DNA of 64,000 bases from Oscillospiraceae bacterium (lineage in GTDB: Bacteria > Bacillota > Clostridia > Oscillospirales > Ruminococcaceae). The position numbers and the translations under genes are program-made. The notes beneath the pieces are model-generated. The model was given only the letters and a program-made list of their open reading frames with translations, ran no database searches and was not told the DNA's origin. Location of the stretch: contig JAJQFI010000008.1 in NCBI GenBank assembly GCA_021201235.1, positions 62,001 through 126,000 of the forward strand, written 5' to 3'. Positions 52,762 to 58,387 of the stretch are shown one piece after another; position 1 is the stretch's first letter; every line of letters starts with the position of its first letter.

Positions 52762-52787
52762 AATCCGAACCACGAAAGGTTCGGATT
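52762..52787 (-). terminator. Terminator of tRNA-Ala
   Basis: AATCCGAACC/GGTTCGGATT, a 10-bp perfect stem; on the minus strand TTTTTTG follows, ten bases after the tRNA end. Confidence 0.9.
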
Positions 52788-52796
52788 ATTTCGATG

Positions 52797-52872
52797 TGGT
52801 GGAGCATACGGGATTCGAACCCGTGACCTCCACACTGCCAGTGTGGCGCGCTCCCAACTGCGCTAATACCCC
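52797..52872 (-). tRNA. tRNA-Ala (anticodon GGC), CCA encoded
   Basis: 76 nt on the minus strand: acceptor GGGGTAT/ATGCTCC with the G3-U70 pair diagnostic of alanine, anticodon stem CCACA/TGTGG with loop CTGGCAG (anticodon GGC), T arm with GGTTCGAATCC, and encoded CCA end. Confidence 0.97.
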
Positions 52873-52952: not shown

Positions 52953-53822
52953 TTACAGGAGCTTCCCCAGCACCCTCCCGATATCATCATCAATGCATAC
53001 CGATTGCTTCTCAATCTGCGACGGGCAGGCGGCATCGCCGTAGTTTATGCAGACATAGGTCGCTTTCGGGTTCTTCACGGTCATCTGCCAGAAGGGGTAT
53101 TTGATGATGGCGGGGGTATTAAACCCGACCCCGAGCTCGAGGTAAAGGGTCGCCAAGCCCTCGTGCCTCCGATTGAACTCGGAATACCTCTCCGCCGCCT
53201 GATGCCAGCCCTCGTCCTCGACGAAAGTGTCATCACACCTAAGATTTGTGTTCATCGGCTTGCCGCAGACGGGGCATCTCGGGACGAGCTCCGACGGGAT
53301 TCGCATGTTTTCCTGCGTCTCCATCATCTTTTTGATAACTTCTTCGTTATCGTAGGTTTTCCGATGGCAGGGCTCGGAGCACTGGAAGAGACCGTAGTCG
53401 CCCTGAGTATAGAATAGTCGCTTTTTGTCGAAGCCCGCCTTCTGGAAGCAGTGGTCGACATTGGTCGTGAGGACAAAGTAGTCTTTATCCTTCACCAACT
53501 CAAGCAATTCCTGATAGACCGGCTTCGGGGCGTCGGTGTAGCGGTTCAGCCAGATATTTCTGCTCCAGAAGCCCCAGAATTCCTCGAGGGTTTCATATGG
53601 GTAGAAGCCACCCGAGTACATGTCGTGGAAGCCGTACTTTTCCTCAAAGTCGGAGAAATTCTCCTCGAACCTCTTGCCTGAGTAGCTGAAGCCCGCAGAG
53701 GTCGAGAGCCCCGCTCCCGCACCGATTACGACTGCGTCGGCGGTGTCGAGCGCTTCCCTAAGCCGCTCAATCTGCTCGGAGGAGCTTCTCATAAATTTCG
53801 AGGTCGGCATCTTTAAATACAT
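52953..53822 (-). CDS. Class M sirtuin (SirTM), probable protein ADP-ribosyltransferase
   Basis: 289 aa. NAD-binding GAGAGLSTSAGF (residues 34-45), NVDH (121-124) and a C-x3-C/C-x2-C zinc site (C148, C152, C183, C186). The position of the catalytic His of deacetylase sirtuins is Gln140 (YTQGDYG), the SirTM hallmark; characterised SirTMs ADP-ribosylate lipoylated GcvH-L and are undone by a linked macrodomain. Here the macrodomain is present but GcvH-L and LplA2 are not, so the target may differ. ATG at 53822 has AAAGGTGA upstream and overlaps the macrodomain gene by 56 bases; ATG at 53792 is an alternative. Confidence 0.88.
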   Translation of the reverse strand: MYLKMPTSKFMRSSSEQIERLREALDTADAVVIGAGAGLSTSAGFSYSGKRFEENFSDFEEKYGFHDMYSGGFYPYETLEEFWGFWSRNIWLNRYTDAPKPVYQELLELVKDKDYFVLTTNVDHCFQKAGFDKKRLFYTQGDYGLFQCSEPCHRKTYDNEEVIKKMMETQENMRIPSELVPRCPVCGKPMNTNLRCDDTFVEDEGWHQAAERYSEFNRRHEGLATLYLELGVGFNTPAIIKYPFWQMTVKNPKATYVCINYGDAACPSQIEKQSVCIDDDIGRVLGKLL

Positions 53823-54546
53823 TGAATATCACCTTTATTTCGCTGTGGGTTTCTTTCTTATAATCTGAAACTGTTCTGAGAGCAATCTCTGCCGCCTTGC
53901 CGTTCGGGAAGTGGAACTCGCCGGTCGAGATGCAACAGAACGCGATGCTCGGAGCGCCGTTTTTATCTGCAAGCTCCAGACACGAACGGTAACACGAGGC
54001 GAGGAGCTTCTTGTCCCTCTCCGTAAGCCTCCAACCGACAATCGGTCCGACCGAGTGGATGACGTGGTCGCACGGGAGGTTGAATGCGGGAGTGATTTTG
54101 GCGGTGCCCGTCTCCTCCTCGTGACCCTGCTTCTGCATAATCTCGTTGCACGCAAGCCGAAGCTGGACGCCGGCATAGGTGTGGATGGCGTTGTCGATGC
54201 ACCCGTGATTCGGGACGAAGCAACCGAGGAGCGCCGAGTTCGCCGCGTTGACGATAGCTCCGCACCGAAGCGTCGTTATGTCTTCCTGCCAGAGATAAAT
54301 GTCGTCGCGGACAGGCGCAAGGTCAGATATATCCGTAATTCCCTTCCCCATGGTCTCTTCGCGAAGATACTCGTCCTGAATTTTCAAAAATTCGTCGCTA
54401 ATCGGCTTCAGAAGACGGACGTTGAACAGTGCCCTGAGAAGCCGCTTTTGCGAGTATTCGTCGTCGGGGATTTCATAGTCCCGATACTGCGGTTCTTCGG
54501 CAAGAAGCTCTTTTATTAGGTAGATTCTGCGGTCGGATTGGGTCAT
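53767..54546 (-). CDS. Zinc-dependent macrodomain (ADP-ribosyl hydrolase)
   Basis: 259 aa. An N-terminal ~75-residue helical extension precedes a macrodomain with AIVNAANSALLGC (residues 97-109) and the zinc-type signature C109, H114, C116 in GCFVPNHGCIDNAIH; the HSVGPIV and ISTGEFHFPNGKAAEIA loops complete the ADP-ribose pocket. Zn-macrodomains linked to SirTM remove its modification. Two bases separate it from the upstream PPOX gene. ATG at 54546 is chosen; an upstream extension overlaps the PPOX gene. Confidence 0.9.
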   Translation of the reverse strand: MTQSDRRIYLIKELLAEEPQYRDYEIPDDEYSQKRLLRALFNVRLLKPISDEFLKIQDEYLREETMGKGITDISDLAPVRDDIYLWQEDITTLRCGAIVNAANSALLGCFVPNHGCIDNAIHTYAGVQLRLACNEIMQKQGHEEETGTAKITPAFNLPCDHVIHSVGPIVGWRLTERDKKLLASCYRSCLELADKNGAPSIAFCCISTGEFHFPNGKAAEIALRTVSDYKKETHSEIKVIFNVFKDADLEIYEKLLRAD

Positions 54547-54548
54547 CC

Positions 54549-55157
54549 TTATCCCCTCTTTTTGATGGTCTGCTTCGGACAGATTTCGGCACAGCGTCCG
54601 CAATGAAGGCAACGGCTCTGGTCGATGACGACGGGCTTTTTGGTGATGTCAATACACTTCTGTGGGCAGACGGAATAGCAGAGCTTGCACCCGATGCAGG
54701 CATCCCCGACGAAGTAGCCGGTCTTAGTTTCCTCAGGCTCACCGATTGTGATGCTCTCGCGTGAAACATGCCCGGGATCGCTTATGTCAAAATACTCGCC
54801 GGTGGCTTCGTAAAGACGGAACACCTCGAGAGCAGTTCTTGTGTTGTCTGGGTAAATCCCCTGCATATATGTATTCTTTTCGAAAATCTCGTCAAGCTTC
54901 TCCGAGCCGATATTCTCGATTTTTCCACGGAGTGAAACCGACTTTTTGTCCTTAGTGGCGGACAGAGCGATAAACTTCTGCTCCATAAGTTGGCTATAGA
55001 AAGCCTTGCCCTTCGCCGTCAGGAAGTACACTCCCTCGTCGTCCCAGAGCATCATGTCGATTGTTCTGGTCACGGGGTGCCCATCCTCGCCGATTGTCGC
55101 AACCGTTGCGGAGTGGAGCTCCTCAACGAGCATCTTCAAATAATTCTGTTTGGACAT
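54549..55157 (-). CDS. Pyridoxamine-5'-phosphate-oxidase-like flavoprotein fused to 2x[4Fe-4S] ferredoxin
   Basis: 202 aa. Residues 1-135 are a split-barrel FMN-binding fold (ATVATIGEDGHPVTRTIDMM, FLTAKGKAFYSQL). Residues 150-200 hold CIGCKLCYSVCPQKC and CLHCGRCAEICP, two 4Fe-4S clusters. It probably moves electrons between ferredoxin-type carriers and a flavin-bound substrate; the substrate is unknown. It sits between a predicted flavin transporter gene and the ADP-ribosylation pair, eleven bases after the former. Confidence 0.88.
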   Translation of the reverse strand: MSKQNYLKMLVEELHSATVATIGEDGHPVTRTIDMMLWDDEGVYFLTAKGKAFYSQLMEQKFIALSATKDKKSVSLRGKIENIGSEKLDEIFEKNTYMQGIYPDNTRTALEVFRLYEATGEYFDISDPGHVSRESITIGEPEETKTGYFVGDACIGCKLCYSVCPQKCIDITKKPVVIDQSRCLHCGRCAEICPKQTIKKRG

Positions 55158-55168
55158 TTCTCTCTCCC

Positions 55169-55786
55169 TCAGTGTTTTCCCTTCAGAATCGGGCTCAGGT
55201 GCTTATAAATCATCATCGTGAACACTCCGATGACAAGCCCCTTGAGAAGATTAAAGGGAAATGCGTTAAAAATAATAACGTCAAGCTTTGTATGAATAAA
55301 CGGTATAAACTCCTCAAAAGAGGCGATAAGCTCATCCACCGGCATGAAATTTTCGAACAATGGCAGAAGTATGAAGTAGTTTGTGAACGCCGCAACAATT
55401 CCCATCACGACGCTTCCGACAATACATGAAATCCACGCCATCGCCTTTGTCTTATGAAATTTATAGATGGTTCCGGCTGTGAATACATACGACGCACCCA
55501 TAAGGAAGTTTGCGAGCTCGCCGACACCGCCGGTTGATGTTGCGAAGAGCCTGAGTGCGTTCTTTATCAGCTCGATAAGAACTCCGACCAACGGTCCGAA
55601 TGCAAAAGCGCCTATAAGCGCCGGGAAATCGGACAAATCCATCTTTGCGAAGGACGGTGAAAGCGGAACCGGAAAGTCCAAAAACGCAAGAATGTATGAT
55701 ATTGCCGCAAGTATCGCCGTCATTGTCATCGTTCTTGTGTTCATAGCGCCTGATTTGGTTTTCTTGGCTGTTGTCTCTTGATTCAT
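55169..55786 (-). CDS. ECF transporter S component, RibU-like (riboflavin)
   Basis: 205 aa with five or six membrane helices. The DLSDFPALIGAFAFGPLVGVLIELIKNALR segment is typical of RibU-type S components, which take up riboflavin with a shared energising module. No EcfA/T genes are adjacent. The downstream flavoprotein supports a flavin substrate. AAAGGAG precedes ATG at 55786. The operon probably starts here. Confidence 0.85.
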   Translation of the reverse strand: MNQETTAKKTKSGAMNTRTMTMTAILAAISYILAFLDFPVPLSPSFAKMDLSDFPALIGAFAFGPLVGVLIELIKNALRLFATSTGGVGELANFLMGASYVFTAGTIYKFHKTKAMAWISCIVGSVVMGIVAAFTNYFILLPLFENFMPVDELIASFEEFIPFIHTKLDVIIFNAFPFNLLKGLVIGVFTMMIYKHLSPILKGKH

Positions 55787-55863: not shown

Positions 55864-56259
55864 TCAGAACTCGTAAGGCGGGTTGCCGGAGAAGTCAGCG
55901 ATAACGCCGTGAGGAGCTTCGAGATAGAATACCTCAAAAATCGGGTTGTCGGCGGTCTGATACTGACCCTTTACGATGGGGTTCTTGATGCACATTTCCT
56001 TGGCAGCCATGTTGTTCTCGAAAACAGCCTTGCCATGAAGTCTGATCCAAGCATAAGCGGGGCTGGAAACGGAAATTTCAACCTCGGGATTAGCAAGCAT
56101 ATCCTTGTAGACATCCTTGGTGTTGTTGGTGCAAAACCAGAGCTTGCCCTCAAGCTCGCCTGCAAACATGAACGGGCGGCACTTAGCCTTTCCGTCGCGA
56201 CCGACTGTTGCCAGATACTGAATAGGGTTCTCGTTCAAGAATTCGATTACTTTCTCCAT
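55864..56259 (-). CDS. Pyridoxamine-5'-phosphate-oxidase family protein
   Basis: 131 aa, split-barrel flavin-binding fold: YLATVGRDGKAKCRPFMF (residues 15-32), LWFCTNNTKDVYKDMLANP and SSPAYAWIRLHGKAVF. A small FMN- or F420-type binding protein of unknown substrate. GGAGGT before ATG at 56259. Its promoter carries two Rrf2-type operators, so it is probably controlled by the adjacent regulator. Confidence 0.88.
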   Translation of the reverse strand: MEKVIEFLNENPIQYLATVGRDGKAKCRPFMFAGELEGKLWFCTNNTKDVYKDMLANPEVEISVSSPAYAWIRLHGKAVFENNMAAKEMCIKNPIVKGQYQTADNPIFEVFYLEAPHGVIADFSGNPPYEF

Positions 56260-56288: not shown

Positions 56289-56353
56289 GTTGTAACCTTT
56301 TCGATTACAACATGAGTATAACACATCGTAGTTGTAATGTCAAGAGTTACAAC
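56289..56353 (-). promoter_or_regulatory. Promoter with two GTTGTAA-N9-TTACAAC operators
   Basis: Minus strand TTGACA (56338-56343), 17-base spacer, TATACT (56315-56320). Two identical perfect palindromes, GTTGTAA-N9-TTACAAC, lie at 56289-56311 (over the start site) and 56331-56353 (the -35 occupies the first six bases of its N9). Same geometry as the rrf2 promoter. Confidence 0.88.
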
Positions 56354-56393: not shown

Positions 56394-56424
56394 AAGAAAA
56401 GTCCGAAGCTTCAGCTTTCGGACT
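56394..56424 (-). terminator. Terminator overlapping the 3' end of the rrf2 gene
   Basis: AGTCCGAAGC and GCTTTCGGACT form a stem with one bulge; on the minus strand TTTTCTTTT follows. The stem includes the last coding bases of the regulator gene, separating it from the PPOX transcript. Confidence 0.8.
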
Positions 56425-56857
56425 CTTTTTCTATGCAAATTTTGGTGTCATTTACGACATCGGCGACGGTTATCTCACGCATTTTGTCCTCCATCGCCTG
56501 CTGAATCGTCATCAGCTTGTCGTCAAGGGCGGCGTGGATATTCCTGCCGACGGGACAAGCCTGACTCGGGTTTTCGTGGAAATGGAAGAGCTCGCCGCTC
56601 TCGACGCACTCAACAGCGTTGTAGACGTCAAGGAAGGTGATTTCGTCAAGAGGCTTCGCCGTCGACGCTCCCCCGCTCCCCCGAGCCACGGTGATGAGCC
56701 CTGCGGCTTTGAGCTGTTGTAAGATACGGCGGATTATGACCGGATTGACATTGATGCTCCCCGCCAGAAACTCGCTCGTGATTTTGTATTGGTCCTTGAA
56801 CGTCTCGATACAGGTGAGGATGTGAATGGCTATTGTAAATCTGCTTGAAATCTGCAT
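56411..56857 (-). CDS. Rrf2 family transcriptional regulator
   Basis: 148 aa. Winged helix: FTIAIHILTCIE, SEFLAGSINVNPVIIRRILQQLKAAGLI (recognition helix) and the wing ARGSGGASTAKP. Cys residues at about 17, 85, 102 and 142 are not in the CX5CX7C cluster pattern of NsrR or the IscR pattern, so this is closer to YwnA-type members. Its own promoter and that of the downstream PPOX gene carry TGTAA-N9-TTACA sites, implying autoregulation and control of the PPOX gene. ATG at 56857 has AAGGAG upstream. Confidence 0.92.
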   Translation of the reverse strand: MQISSRFTIAIHILTCIETFKDQYKITSEFLAGSINVNPVIIRRILQQLKAAGLITVARGSGGASTAKPLDEITFLDVYNAVECVESGELFHFHENPSQACPVGRNIHAALDDKLMTIQQAMEDKMREITVADVVNDTKICIEKESES

Positions 56858-57001: not shown

Positions 57002-57055
57002 ATCTCTGCTCACAACTCTGTTTTTAAAATATGGGTGGGCAGAAGGACAGTTTTT

Positions 57056-58387
57056 ATGGCTATACAGCTTTCGGATAGATTCAATTTCAGGCGACTTCTT
57101 CGGTTCACTTTGCCGTCTATCATAATGATGATTTTCACGTCTATTTACGGCGTGGTGGACGGGTTCTTCGTCTCGAACTTTGCGGGGAAGACGCCGTTCA
57201 CGGCAATCAATCTCATCATGCCGTTCTTAATGGTATTGGGAGCGCTCGGGTTCATGATGGGCACCGGCGGCAGTGCGATTATTGCGAAGACGATGGGCGA
57301 GGGCGACAAGGCGAAGGCAAACAGCCTCTTTTCCCTCTTCATCTATATATCGGTTCTTGCGGGAATTGTCGTTGCGGCAATCGGAATTGCGGTTCTGCGA
57401 CCGGTTGCGATACTCCTCGGCGCAGAGGGCGAAATCCTCGAGAACTGCGTCATCCACGGAAGAATTATACTCATGGCGCTTCCGGCGTATATGCTTCAAT
57501 ACGAGTTCCAGAGCCTGTTTGTGACGGCTGAGAAGCCGAACCTCGGGCTTATCGTGACCATTGCGGCGGGATGCACAAATATAGTTCTTGATGCCGTAAT
57601 GGTCGGAGCTTTGTCCCTCGGACTTGTGGGAGCCGCAGTAGCAACGGCGATGAGCCAGTGCGTCGGCGGACTGGTGCCGATTATATACTTCGCTCTTCCG
57701 AACAAAAGCCTTTTAAGGCTCGGTAAAACGAAATTTGACGGCAGGTCACTCCTGAAGGCCTGCACCAACGGCTCGTCGGAGCTTATGAGCAATATTGCGA
57801 TGTCGACCGTTTCGATGCTCTATAACTATCAGCTTCTTCAGTATGCCGGAAACGACGGGGTCGCCGCCTATGGCGTTCTTATGTATGTCAACATGATTTT
57901 TATTGCAGTGTTTATCGGCTACTCGGTCGGCTCGGCGCCGATTGTCAGCTATCACTACGGTGCCGGAAACAAAGACGAGCTCAAGGGTCTGCTCCGAAAA
58001 AGCGTTACCATCATTCTGTGCTTCTCGGTTTCGATGCTCGTATGTGCCGAGCTATTGGCAAAACCGCTTTCAATGCTGTTTGTCGGGTATGACGAAGGGC
58101 TTCTTGAGCTCACGCTCGGCGGATTCAGGATATATTCCTTCTCGTTCCTGTTTGCGGGATTCGCGATTTACGGCTCGTCCTTTTTCACGGCTCTCAACAA
58201 CGGCGTGATTTCGGCGATTATTTCATTCTTGAGAACCCTTGTATTTCAGATTGCGGCGGTGCTCACCTTCCCTCTCATCTGGGGCATAGACGGAATCTGG
58301 TTCTCACTCGTCGCCGCAGAGATAATGGCGGTCGCGACGACTTCGGTGTTCATATTCGCGAAGAGGAAGAAATACGGCTATATGTAA
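57056..58387 (+). CDS. MATE family efflux transporter
   Basis: 443 aa with twelve hydrophobic segments in two six-helix halves. Family features: SIIMMIFTSIYGVVDGFFVS in helix 1 and GFMMGTGGSAIIAKTMGEGDKAKA after helix 2, with the matching YSVGSAPIVSYHYGAGNKDELK region in the second half. Exports drugs or metabolites using Na+ or H+. ATG at 57056 follows GAAGGA; the upstream GTG frame extension lacks support. Divergent from rrf2. Confidence 0.93.
   Translation: MAIQLSDRFNFRRLLRFTLPSIIMMIFTSIYGVVDGFFVSNFAGKTPFTAINLIMPFLMVLGALGFMMGTGGSAIIAKTMGEGDKAKANSLFSLFIYISVLAGIVVAAIGIAVLRPVAILLGAEGEILENCVIHGRIILMALPAYMLQYEFQSLFVTAEKPNLGLIVTIAAGCTNIVLDAVMVGALSLGLVGAAVATAMSQCVGGLVPIIYFALPNKSLLRLGKTKFDGRSLLKACTNGSSELMSNIAMSTVSMLYNYQLLQYAGNDGVAAYGVLMYVNMIFIAVFIGYSVGSAPIVSYHYGAGNKDELKGLLRKSVTIILCFSVSMLVCAELLAKPLSMLFVGYDEGLLELTLGGFRIYSFSFLFAGFAIYGSSFFTALNNGVISAIISFLRTLVFQIAAVLTFPLIWGIDGIWFSLVAAEIMAVATTSVFIFAKRKKYGYM

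Follow-up and report, generated by a model that had tools for sequence, protein, structure and literature searches.

A PPOX-ferredoxin gene in a likely conserved unit with a SirTM/Zn-macrodomain pair: a candidate client of reversible ADP-ribosylation in a probable clostridial redox-stress operon

Introduction

What does a SirTM/Zn-macrodomain pair act on when its genome encodes no lipoyl carrier of the GcvH-L type? This question is raised by a stretch of 64,000 nucleotides (nt) from an Oscillospiraceae bacterium (contig JAJQFI010000008.1, positions 62,001 to 126,000, assembly GCA_021201235.1; hereafter the window), part of a genome of 2.06 Mb in 32 contigs that is listed as 100% complete. Its minus strand carries the genes of a class M sirtuin (SirTM), the predicted writer of an ADP-ribose mark, of a Zn-macrodomain protein (Zn-Macro), the predicted eraser, and, directly upstream of both, of a protein that joins a PNPOx-type split barrel to a ferredoxin domain (PPOX-Fd). 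According to PMC11490716, SirTM has GcvH-L as its one known target, and what other SirTM/Zn-Macro systems modify is described there as unknown. We find that PPOX-Fd–Macro–SirTM is likely a real conserved unit, and tentatively read the locus as an electrophile-stress operon in which the SirTM/Zn-Macro pair would reversibly ADP-ribosylate PPOX-Fd.

Results

Gene order and predicted proteins

The genes in question are, in the order of transcription (aa, amino acids):

55864..56259, minus strand: PPOX2, small pyridoxamine-phosphate-oxidase-like protein, 131 aa (PF01243, 45.6 bits)
55169..55786, minus strand: RibU-like S component of an energy-coupling factor (ECF) transporter, 205 aa (PF12822, 122.5 bits; S. 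aureus RibU 3p5n)
54549..55157, minus strand: PPOX-Fd, PNPOx-type split barrel plus 2x[4Fe-4S] ferredoxin domain, 202 aa, clade A (PF01243, Fer4, tree)
53767..54546, minus strand: Zn-macrodomain, predicted protein-ADP-ribose hydrolase, 259 aa (NF003163; Cx4HxC; NAAN)
52953..53822, minus strand: SirTM, class M sirtuin, predicted ADP-ribosyltransferase, 289 aa (5a3a; QG; GVGFNTP)

The RibU-like gene is followed after 11 nt by PPOX-Fd and this after 2 nt by Zn-Macro, which overlaps SirTM by 56 nt, in agreement with a preliminary description of the window that had reported these four genes in this order with gaps of at most 11 nt or overlaps; the AGGGG ahead of Zn-Macro sits within the 3' end of the PPOX-Fd gene. 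PPOX2, a fifth gene 77 nt upstream of the RibU-like gene, probably shares a transcript with the other four. The unit reaches further upstream than that description had it, taking in PPOX2, a promoter with two operators and the gene of an Rrf2-family regulator.

The closest solved protein to SirTM is SpySirTM (5a3a, E 2.9e-72), whose catalytic Asn118, Gln137 and Arg192 correspond to N121, Q140 and R195. As in class M sirtuins, QG (Q140-G141) replaces the catalytic HG, GVGFNTP at 231-237 fits the GVGx[NT]TP motif, and the gene is linked, by the 56-nt overlap, to that of a Zn-Macro; the match to Pfam SIR2 (21.7 bits) lies slightly below the cut-off of 24. The sequence argues against an ordinary deacylase, given the QG and the scores, far below cut-off, for the five NCBIfam deacylase models listed. 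Zn-Macro scores 354.9 bits against NF003163 (cut-off 272) and carries NAAN at 100 and the published zinc loop, Cx4HxC, as CFVPNHGC at 109. Its best solved relatives are 8rsi, 5kiv and 8rsl, the first two of which also align across an N-terminal extension of ~80-100 residues ahead of the macro-only model. On the strength of these families, SirTM is predicted to transfer ADP-ribose from NAD and Zn-Macro to hydrolyse it off again.

PPOX-Fd belongs to the split-barrel proteins by its PNPOx_N domain (PF01243, 36.7 bits; Pfam cut-off 28.1), matches Fer4 and contains two CxxCxxCxxxC motifs, so that, judged by its family, it would bind flavin mononucleotide (FMN) and Fe-S clusters. The RibU-like protein is homologous to S. 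aureus RibU (3p5n, E 3.1e-31), scores slightly below cut-off for the riboflavin family PF07155 (26.2 versus 26.7 bits) and may accordingly take up riboflavin. An FMN riboswitch ahead of the RibU-like gene was considered; none is present in the window at Rfam gathering thresholds.

Lipoate genes

The preliminary description had noted the lack of GcvH-L and LplA2, both of which mark the extended SirTM operon. This holds for the operon and, beyond it, for the window and the whole genome: the single GCV_H match is a short stretch in a biotin-type carrier, and the single BPL/LplA/LipB match is BirA (TIGR00121, above cut-off), which rules out a copy of either gene hidden elsewhere. As none is encoded, a GcvH-L-type lipoyl carrier is very unlikely to be the target. 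We further searched 42 SirTM genomes for GCV_H, i.e. every one of the 22 in a phylum sample plus 20 of the remaining 47 in a family sample (see below). A match was found in 26 of them at E 1e-3 and in 11 at E <1e-30; in none of these 11 did GcvH lie within 150 kb of SirTM on one contig, adjacency across contig breaks being possible. With GcvH in 11 of 42 genomes and never near SirTM on its contig, a missing GcvH-L is thus ordinary in this group.

The description had also assumed that SirTM operons of Firmicutes normally hold GcvH-L and LplA2, which is too broad, because lipoate-free pairs are already published: a 2015 paper describes independent SirTM/Zn-Macro pairs, places the extended type with GcvH-L and LplA2 in Lactobacillales and Staphylococcaceae, and includes Clostridiaceae and Lachnospiraceae among its SirTM carriers (PMC4518038). 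A 2024 paper likewise reports pairs outside the extended operon, whose tested Zn-Macros cannot strip ADP-ribose from GcvH-L (PMC11490716). What is supported in the suggestion of a different target is that a GcvH-L-type lipoyl carrier is very unlikely and that PPOX-Fd, whose link to Macro–SirTM is both conserved and uncommonly close, makes the best candidate partner, as follows.

Conservation of the PPOX-Fd–Macro–SirTM unit

We surveyed 197 genomes of the window's family, 398 genomes of its phylum, and a set of named loci, the best 80 of at least 595 confirmed SirTM matches (L and G numbers below are our labels for loci and genomes). Since the named loci are those nearest to the window's SirTM, they form a biased sample, and PPOX-Fd rows taken from them are linked by construction; family and named sets may share genomes, and the 56 linked loci include no two identical SirTM proteins.

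In the family sample SirTM is present in 49 genomes and PPOX-Fd in 34 of 197 at E 1e-10, or 30 after removal of four partial matches near E 1e-11 (G051, G146, G177 and G181); 25 of these 30 also contain SirTM (Fisher test 1.4e-13, or 1.8e-12 without the window's own genus; relatedness is not taken into account in these or the later Fisher tests). The phylum sample gave 22 genomes with SirTM, 11 with PPOX-Fd and 7 with both (1.6e-7), and outside the window's own family 5 of the 9 PPOX-Fd genomes have SirTM (2.2e-5). All 7 phylum genomes with both carry them in one gene cluster, with a different order in two: G340 reads PPOX-Fd–SirTM–Macro with a 464-nt gap, and in G511 genes for a quinone oxidoreductase (QOR) and a DUF1848 protein intervene.

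A tree of 63 PPOX-Fd proteins resolved clade A (33 rows, 30 linked to the pair), clade B (19 of its 23 rows scored as linked, in most cases together with ACGX genes) and an unlinked outgroup of 7. Centred on PPOX-Fd, the family sample contains 31 loci, 27 of clades A and B and 4 of the outgroup (L110-L113). Macro–SirTM adjoins 22 of the 27; four of the other five are in genomes with SirTM elsewhere (G045, G091, G116, G179), and only G140 is without it. Centred on SirTM, and restricted to loci with at least 1450 nt available upstream, PPOX-Fd lies nearby in 24/44 family, 26/74 named and 4/19 phylum loci; the family figure comes from a looser script than the strict inspection behind the 22, and L242, its SirTM cut by a contig end, was left out of the 19. 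Among the other genomes of the window's genus, both genes are missing from G044, and in G148 a PPOX-Fd of clade B adjoins Macro–SirTM (L067); the unit also occurs in Gemmiger formicilis (L154) and Ruminococcus flavefaciens (L156, L163). The survey of SirTM neighbourhoods that the preliminary description had proposed thus shows the arrangement to recur in other genomes well above chance.

Tightness of the junctions and neighbouring modules

The gap from PPOX-Fd to Macro is at most 20 nt in 46 of 52 cases, with a median of 1 nt, and in the 56 loci with PPOX-Fd near SirTM the next member of the pair is Macro in 53 and SirTM in 3. We compared this with other neighbours, where names (MBL-like for metallo-beta-lactamase-like, QOR, nitroreductase, YwnB-like) rest on tblastn against one example each. 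Gaps of at most 20 nt were seen from MBL-like to Macro in 1/10 and from nitroreductase to Macro in 1/4, from nitroreductase to PPOX-Fd in 0/17 and from MBL-like to PPOX-Fd in 0/4; the junctions RibU to PPOX-Fd (5/5) and from the radical S-adenosylmethionine (rSAM) gene to nitroreductase (19/21) are tight too. PPOX-Fd is therefore closer to Macro than these other neighbours are, unlike what a shared regulon alone would lead one to expect.

The operons look modular, with ACGX–rSAM–nitroreductase, MBL-like, PPOX2 or YwnB modules ahead of a coupled unit, either PPOX-Fd–Macro–SirTM or the less frequent DUF1848–Macro–SirTM. A DUF1848 protein is encoded upstream of Macro–SirTM in L068, L086, L125, L136, L149 and others, and would be a second candidate client. 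The genes of an ACGX cysteine-repeat peptide and of rSAM_ACGX are joined to SirTM–Macro in L117 (2634-5272), L063, L074, L079, L084 and L101, in most of them with a nitroreductase. The MBL-like protein, named by eye, is a recurrent SirTM neighbour of 264 aa (L064, 10211-11005) with no Pfam or NCBIfam match at E 1e-3.

Cassette exchange in a close relative

Locus L117, from the metagenome-assembled genome Oscillospiraceae bacterium U.9_1, has a SirTM 96% identical to that of the window. The two loci agree at 94% from Macro through SirTM to the tRNA (window 54534-52797) and at 90% across the regulator gene, Rrf2, and its promoter (window 56933-56262), and have the two operators in common as well as the leader as far as the first start codon; blastn gave no match between these two aligned blocks. 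In this middle stretch the window has PPOX2, RibU and a clade-A PPOX-Fd, and L117 has an ACGX repeat peptide, an rSAM protein (its family, TIGR04340, was scored on the relative L084 rather than on L117), a nitroreductase and a clade-B PPOX-Fd. The exchange starts almost exactly at the first start codon and stops at the first codons of Macro, and PPOX-Fd is the only gene type common to both cassettes and the last gene in each.

Beyond the Rrf2 gene, an open reading frame of 450 aa on the plus strand of the window (57035-58387), which by eye looks like a MATE-type transporter, is missing at the matching place in L117; the region therefore changes in more than one place.

Promoter, operators and regulator

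The control region and the downstream end contain the following features:

56411..56857, minus strand: Rrf2-family regulator of the SifR/HypR type, 148 aa, with Cys101 (PF02082, 111.2 bits; 1ylf, E 3.4e-37)
56315..56343, minus strand: putative sigma-70-like promoter TTGACA-N17-TATACT with extended -10 (11/12 consensus; consensus match only)
56331..56353, no strand: operator 1, GTTGTAA-N9-TTACAAC, perfect palindrome overlapping the -35 box
56289..56311, no strand: operator 2, GTTGTAA-N9-TTACAAC, perfect palindrome just past the -10 box
52762..52787, minus strand: terminator-like hairpin beyond a tRNA-Ala (10-pair stem and T-run)

With 11 of 12 consensus positions matched, the promoter ranks first among 8 found by the scan, against 4.4 expected. 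The two perfect operator copies compare with a chance mean of 0.01 per window at one mismatch and are the only sites in the genome at up to one mismatch. Both contain TGTAA-N9-TTACA, the operator of the quinone sensor SifR and of the hypochlorous acid (HOCl) sensor HypR (PMC9218516). Among 169 loci scanned, a site with at most one mismatch was found in 13 of the 15 with an Rrf2-like gene (the window, L263, included) and in 1 of the 154 without; the two Rrf2-bearing loci lacking it, L104 and L105, have distant Rrf2 genes. As the window's regulator scores 58.6 bits against the HypR model NF041852 (cut-off 180), we do not file it as HypR itself. Its cysteines are at 16, 84, 101 and 141, Cys101 being near Cys102 of SifR by residue number. 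In related loci the adjacent gene encodes a YwnB-like NAD(P)H-binding protein (L107 protein versus 4r01, E 4.7e-71), YwnB being a quinone reductase and SifR target (PMC9218516). The fetched stretch includes an HxlR-like gene, generally encoded on the other strand, in 46/74 named, 23/44 family and 5/19 phylum SirTM loci; the one HxlR-like protein scanned matches the redox regulator RrpB at 145.8 bits, below the cut-off of 175. Induction of the operon by electrophiles or oxidants is, as a prediction from sequence, well supported.

At the other end, a tRNA-Ala (52797-52872) lies directly downstream of SirTM on the same strand, ahead of the terminator-like hairpin, which is weak evidence because 6 such sites were found versus 5.2 expected.

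Discussion

How might the operon work if SirTM and Zn-Macro act on PPOX-Fd? Quinones or HOCl-like oxidants would react with Cys101 of the Rrf2 protein, the repressor would leave and the operon would be made. The RibU-like transporter would supply the flavin precursor, and PPOX-Fd, transferring electrons through FMN and 2x[4Fe-4S], would reduce the electrophile or repair damage. SirTM, using NAD+, would attach ADP-ribose to an acidic residue of PPOX-Fd, thereby halting electron flow, and Zn-Macro would remove the ADP-ribose again; that the modification stops electron transfer is speculative. PPOX-Fd would thereby fill the place held by GcvH-L in the operon of S. aureus and S. pyogenes. As PPOX-Fd occurs mostly with the pair and the pair often without PPOX-Fd, we read the relation as one of client to switch, although a regulon could look alike. 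That PPOX-Fd is the direct acceptor of SirTM is possible, but we place it below an even chance because SirTM is associated with further modules of the same redox regulon as well.

Several observations weigh against PPOX-Fd as the target. The DUF1848-to-Macro junction is equally tight (at most 20 nt in 6/8), as is that of a nitroreductase-like gene standing directly before SirTM with no Macro between (3/3). PPOX-Fd is without SirTM in 5 of 30 family genomes, and SirTM is without a detected PPOX-Fd nearby in 20/44 family, 48/74 named and 15/19 phylum loci. On a SirTM tree of 134 rows, 53 of them with PPOX-Fd, its presence is scattered, with 39 changes against a shuffled mean of ~42. The pair thus does not need PPOX-Fd, and a stable ancestral partnership was rejected as a simple account. 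Within PPOX-Fd itself we found no acidic residue that separates the linked clades from the unlinked outgroup: E121 and the acid at 39 are conserved, yet the outgroup is largely acidic there too. In L088 and L081, PPOX-Fd is broken or split beside an intact Macro–SirTM pair, which suggests that its loss may be tolerated there.

Other modules, moreover, show the same kind of association. rSAM_ACGX is present in 14/197 family genomes (12 above the family cut-off), 13 of them with SirTM and 9 with it adjacent (Fisher 4.2e-8), and the MBL-like family in 12/197, 8 with SirTM and 7 adjacent (Fisher 0.0019). Eight of the 11 MBL-like/ACGX loci away from SirTM stand beside HxlR or Rrf2 (L115, L258, L264, L265, L266, L268, L269, L270); the others, L114, L267 and L271, show no such regulator, L271 starting inside the gene. 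As other modules come with the same regulators, a regulon alone yields association, and modification of PPOX-Fd cannot be proved from linkage.

The most serious alternative is therefore co-regulation without modification of PPOX-Fd. SirTM–Macro would then be one module of HxlR/Rrf2 redox-stress operons, with PPOX-Fd, the MBL-like protein, the ACGX cassette, the quinone oxidoreductase, DUF1848 and YwnB as fellow stress genes, and its target would lie elsewhere or be host-specific. We regard this as a real contender, if a somewhat doubtful one, because MBL-like, ACGX, nitroreductase, quinone oxidoreductase and DUF1848 genes also often stand behind HxlR/Rrf2. It accords with the frequency of HxlR-like genes at SirTM loci, with the eight regulator-bearing loci just listed, and with the many SirTM loci that lack PPOX-Fd and its scatter on the SirTM tree. 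It leaves unexplained why PPOX-Fd, unlike MBL-like or nitroreductase genes, is coupled start to stop with Macro, and why it ends both exchanged cassettes.

PPOX-Fd might instead be a helper of the pair that, for instance, reduces or repairs the true target, in the way that OYE interacts with lipoyl-GcvH-L. Known extended operons hold the flavoenzymes OYE and LLM next to writer and eraser, and the former binds GcvH-L in its lipoylated form (PMC4518038); PPOX-Fd and nitroreductase would be the flavoenzymes here. The window's operon has no gene for a carrier protein on which such a helper could act, and we think this role improbable. A non-protein substrate formed in electrophile stress, such as a nucleic acid, a small-molecule thiol or a flavin, would be in keeping with targets stated as unknown outside the extended operon, but is very improbable, since nothing here points to it and the sole SirTM target named in PMC11490716 is a protein.

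The reading in which PPOX-Fd is the client can be widened. SirTM–Zn-Macro might be a portable writer–eraser cassette with exchangeable clients, the clostridial slot upstream of Macro being filled by PPOX-Fd of clade A or B or by DUF1848 in place of lipoyl-GcvH-L, and often joined to the radical-SAM ACGX cysteine-repeat peptide system. We consider this generalization unlikely as it stands; if true, ADP-ribosylation would be a general on/off switch for redox-repair proteins of anaerobes under quinone stress, with whole client cassettes swapped under one promoter.

Comparison with known systems

The extended SirTM operon of S. aureus and S. pyogenes (GcvH-L–Zn-Macro–SirTM–LplA2, OYE, LLM) has the same QG writer and Cx4HxC eraser, overlapping genes, flavoenzymes nearby and a link to oxidative stress. 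In contrast to it, the window has no GcvH-L or LplA2 in operon or genome, PPOX-Fd is the coupled upstream gene, and RibU, PPOX2 and a SifR/HypR-type regulator with its operators are added in front. By its missing lipoate genes the window fits the lone pairs of PMC4518038 and PMC11490716; however, its pair is not alone: many clostridial loci have PPOX-Fd coupled to such a pair. With the quinone and HOCl regulons of SifR and HypR it shares the type of Rrf2 regulator, a matching operator and, in related loci, a YwnB-like neighbour, but here the regulator stands ahead of an ADP-ribosylation module, which the part of PMC9218516 used does not name as a SifR target. In relatives such as L117 the ACGX radical-SAM peptide system (TIGR04340) is found ahead of PPOX-Fd–Macro–SirTM, whereas the window's own genome has none at the family cut-off, its two weak matches both falling below it.

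DraT and DraG reversibly mono-ADP-ribosylate the nitrogenase Fe protein, an Fe-S electron carrier, on an arginine. The kind of target, an Fe-S electron-transfer protein, would be the same as proposed here; the enzymes are unrelated, so that the analogy is one of function only. To our knowledge, nitrogenase is the sole case of reversible ADP-ribosylation of an Fe-S electron carrier; if PPOX-Fd is indeed modified, such control would reach past nitrogenase to clostridial stress control.

We found no description of PPOX-Fd or ACGX genes with SirTM/Zn-Macro in the open-access literature, although the supplementary gene-context tables of PMC4518038 and PMC11490716 may list the arrangement. What is new here is thus the conserved, tight PPOX-Fd–Macro–SirTM unit, pairs without lipoate genes being already published in these papers. 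For SirTM/Zn-Macro pairs beyond GcvH-L, the locus suggests a candidate target and a class of inducers and points to strains that carry this unit, and thereby makes the question of their target directly testable.

Other SirTM arrangements

Some SirTM loci are built differently. L104 (8227-10796) and L105 (7780-10322) each contain three tandem SirTM-like genes, with ~32-37% identity to the window's SirTM, beside an Rrf2-like gene; no macrodomain was detected in the fetched stretch of either array, and in L105 two copies keep QG and the third has EG. In L137 (5501-6840) a cupin gene and a divergently oriented HxlR regulator lie upstream of a SirTM without detected Macro; a similar spacing of HxlR to SirTM is seen in L144, L147, L152, L196 and L130 (the cupin was checked in L137 only). 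Finally, L243, from another family of the order, reads PPOX2–RibU–SirTM–Macro, with no PPOX-Fd detected.

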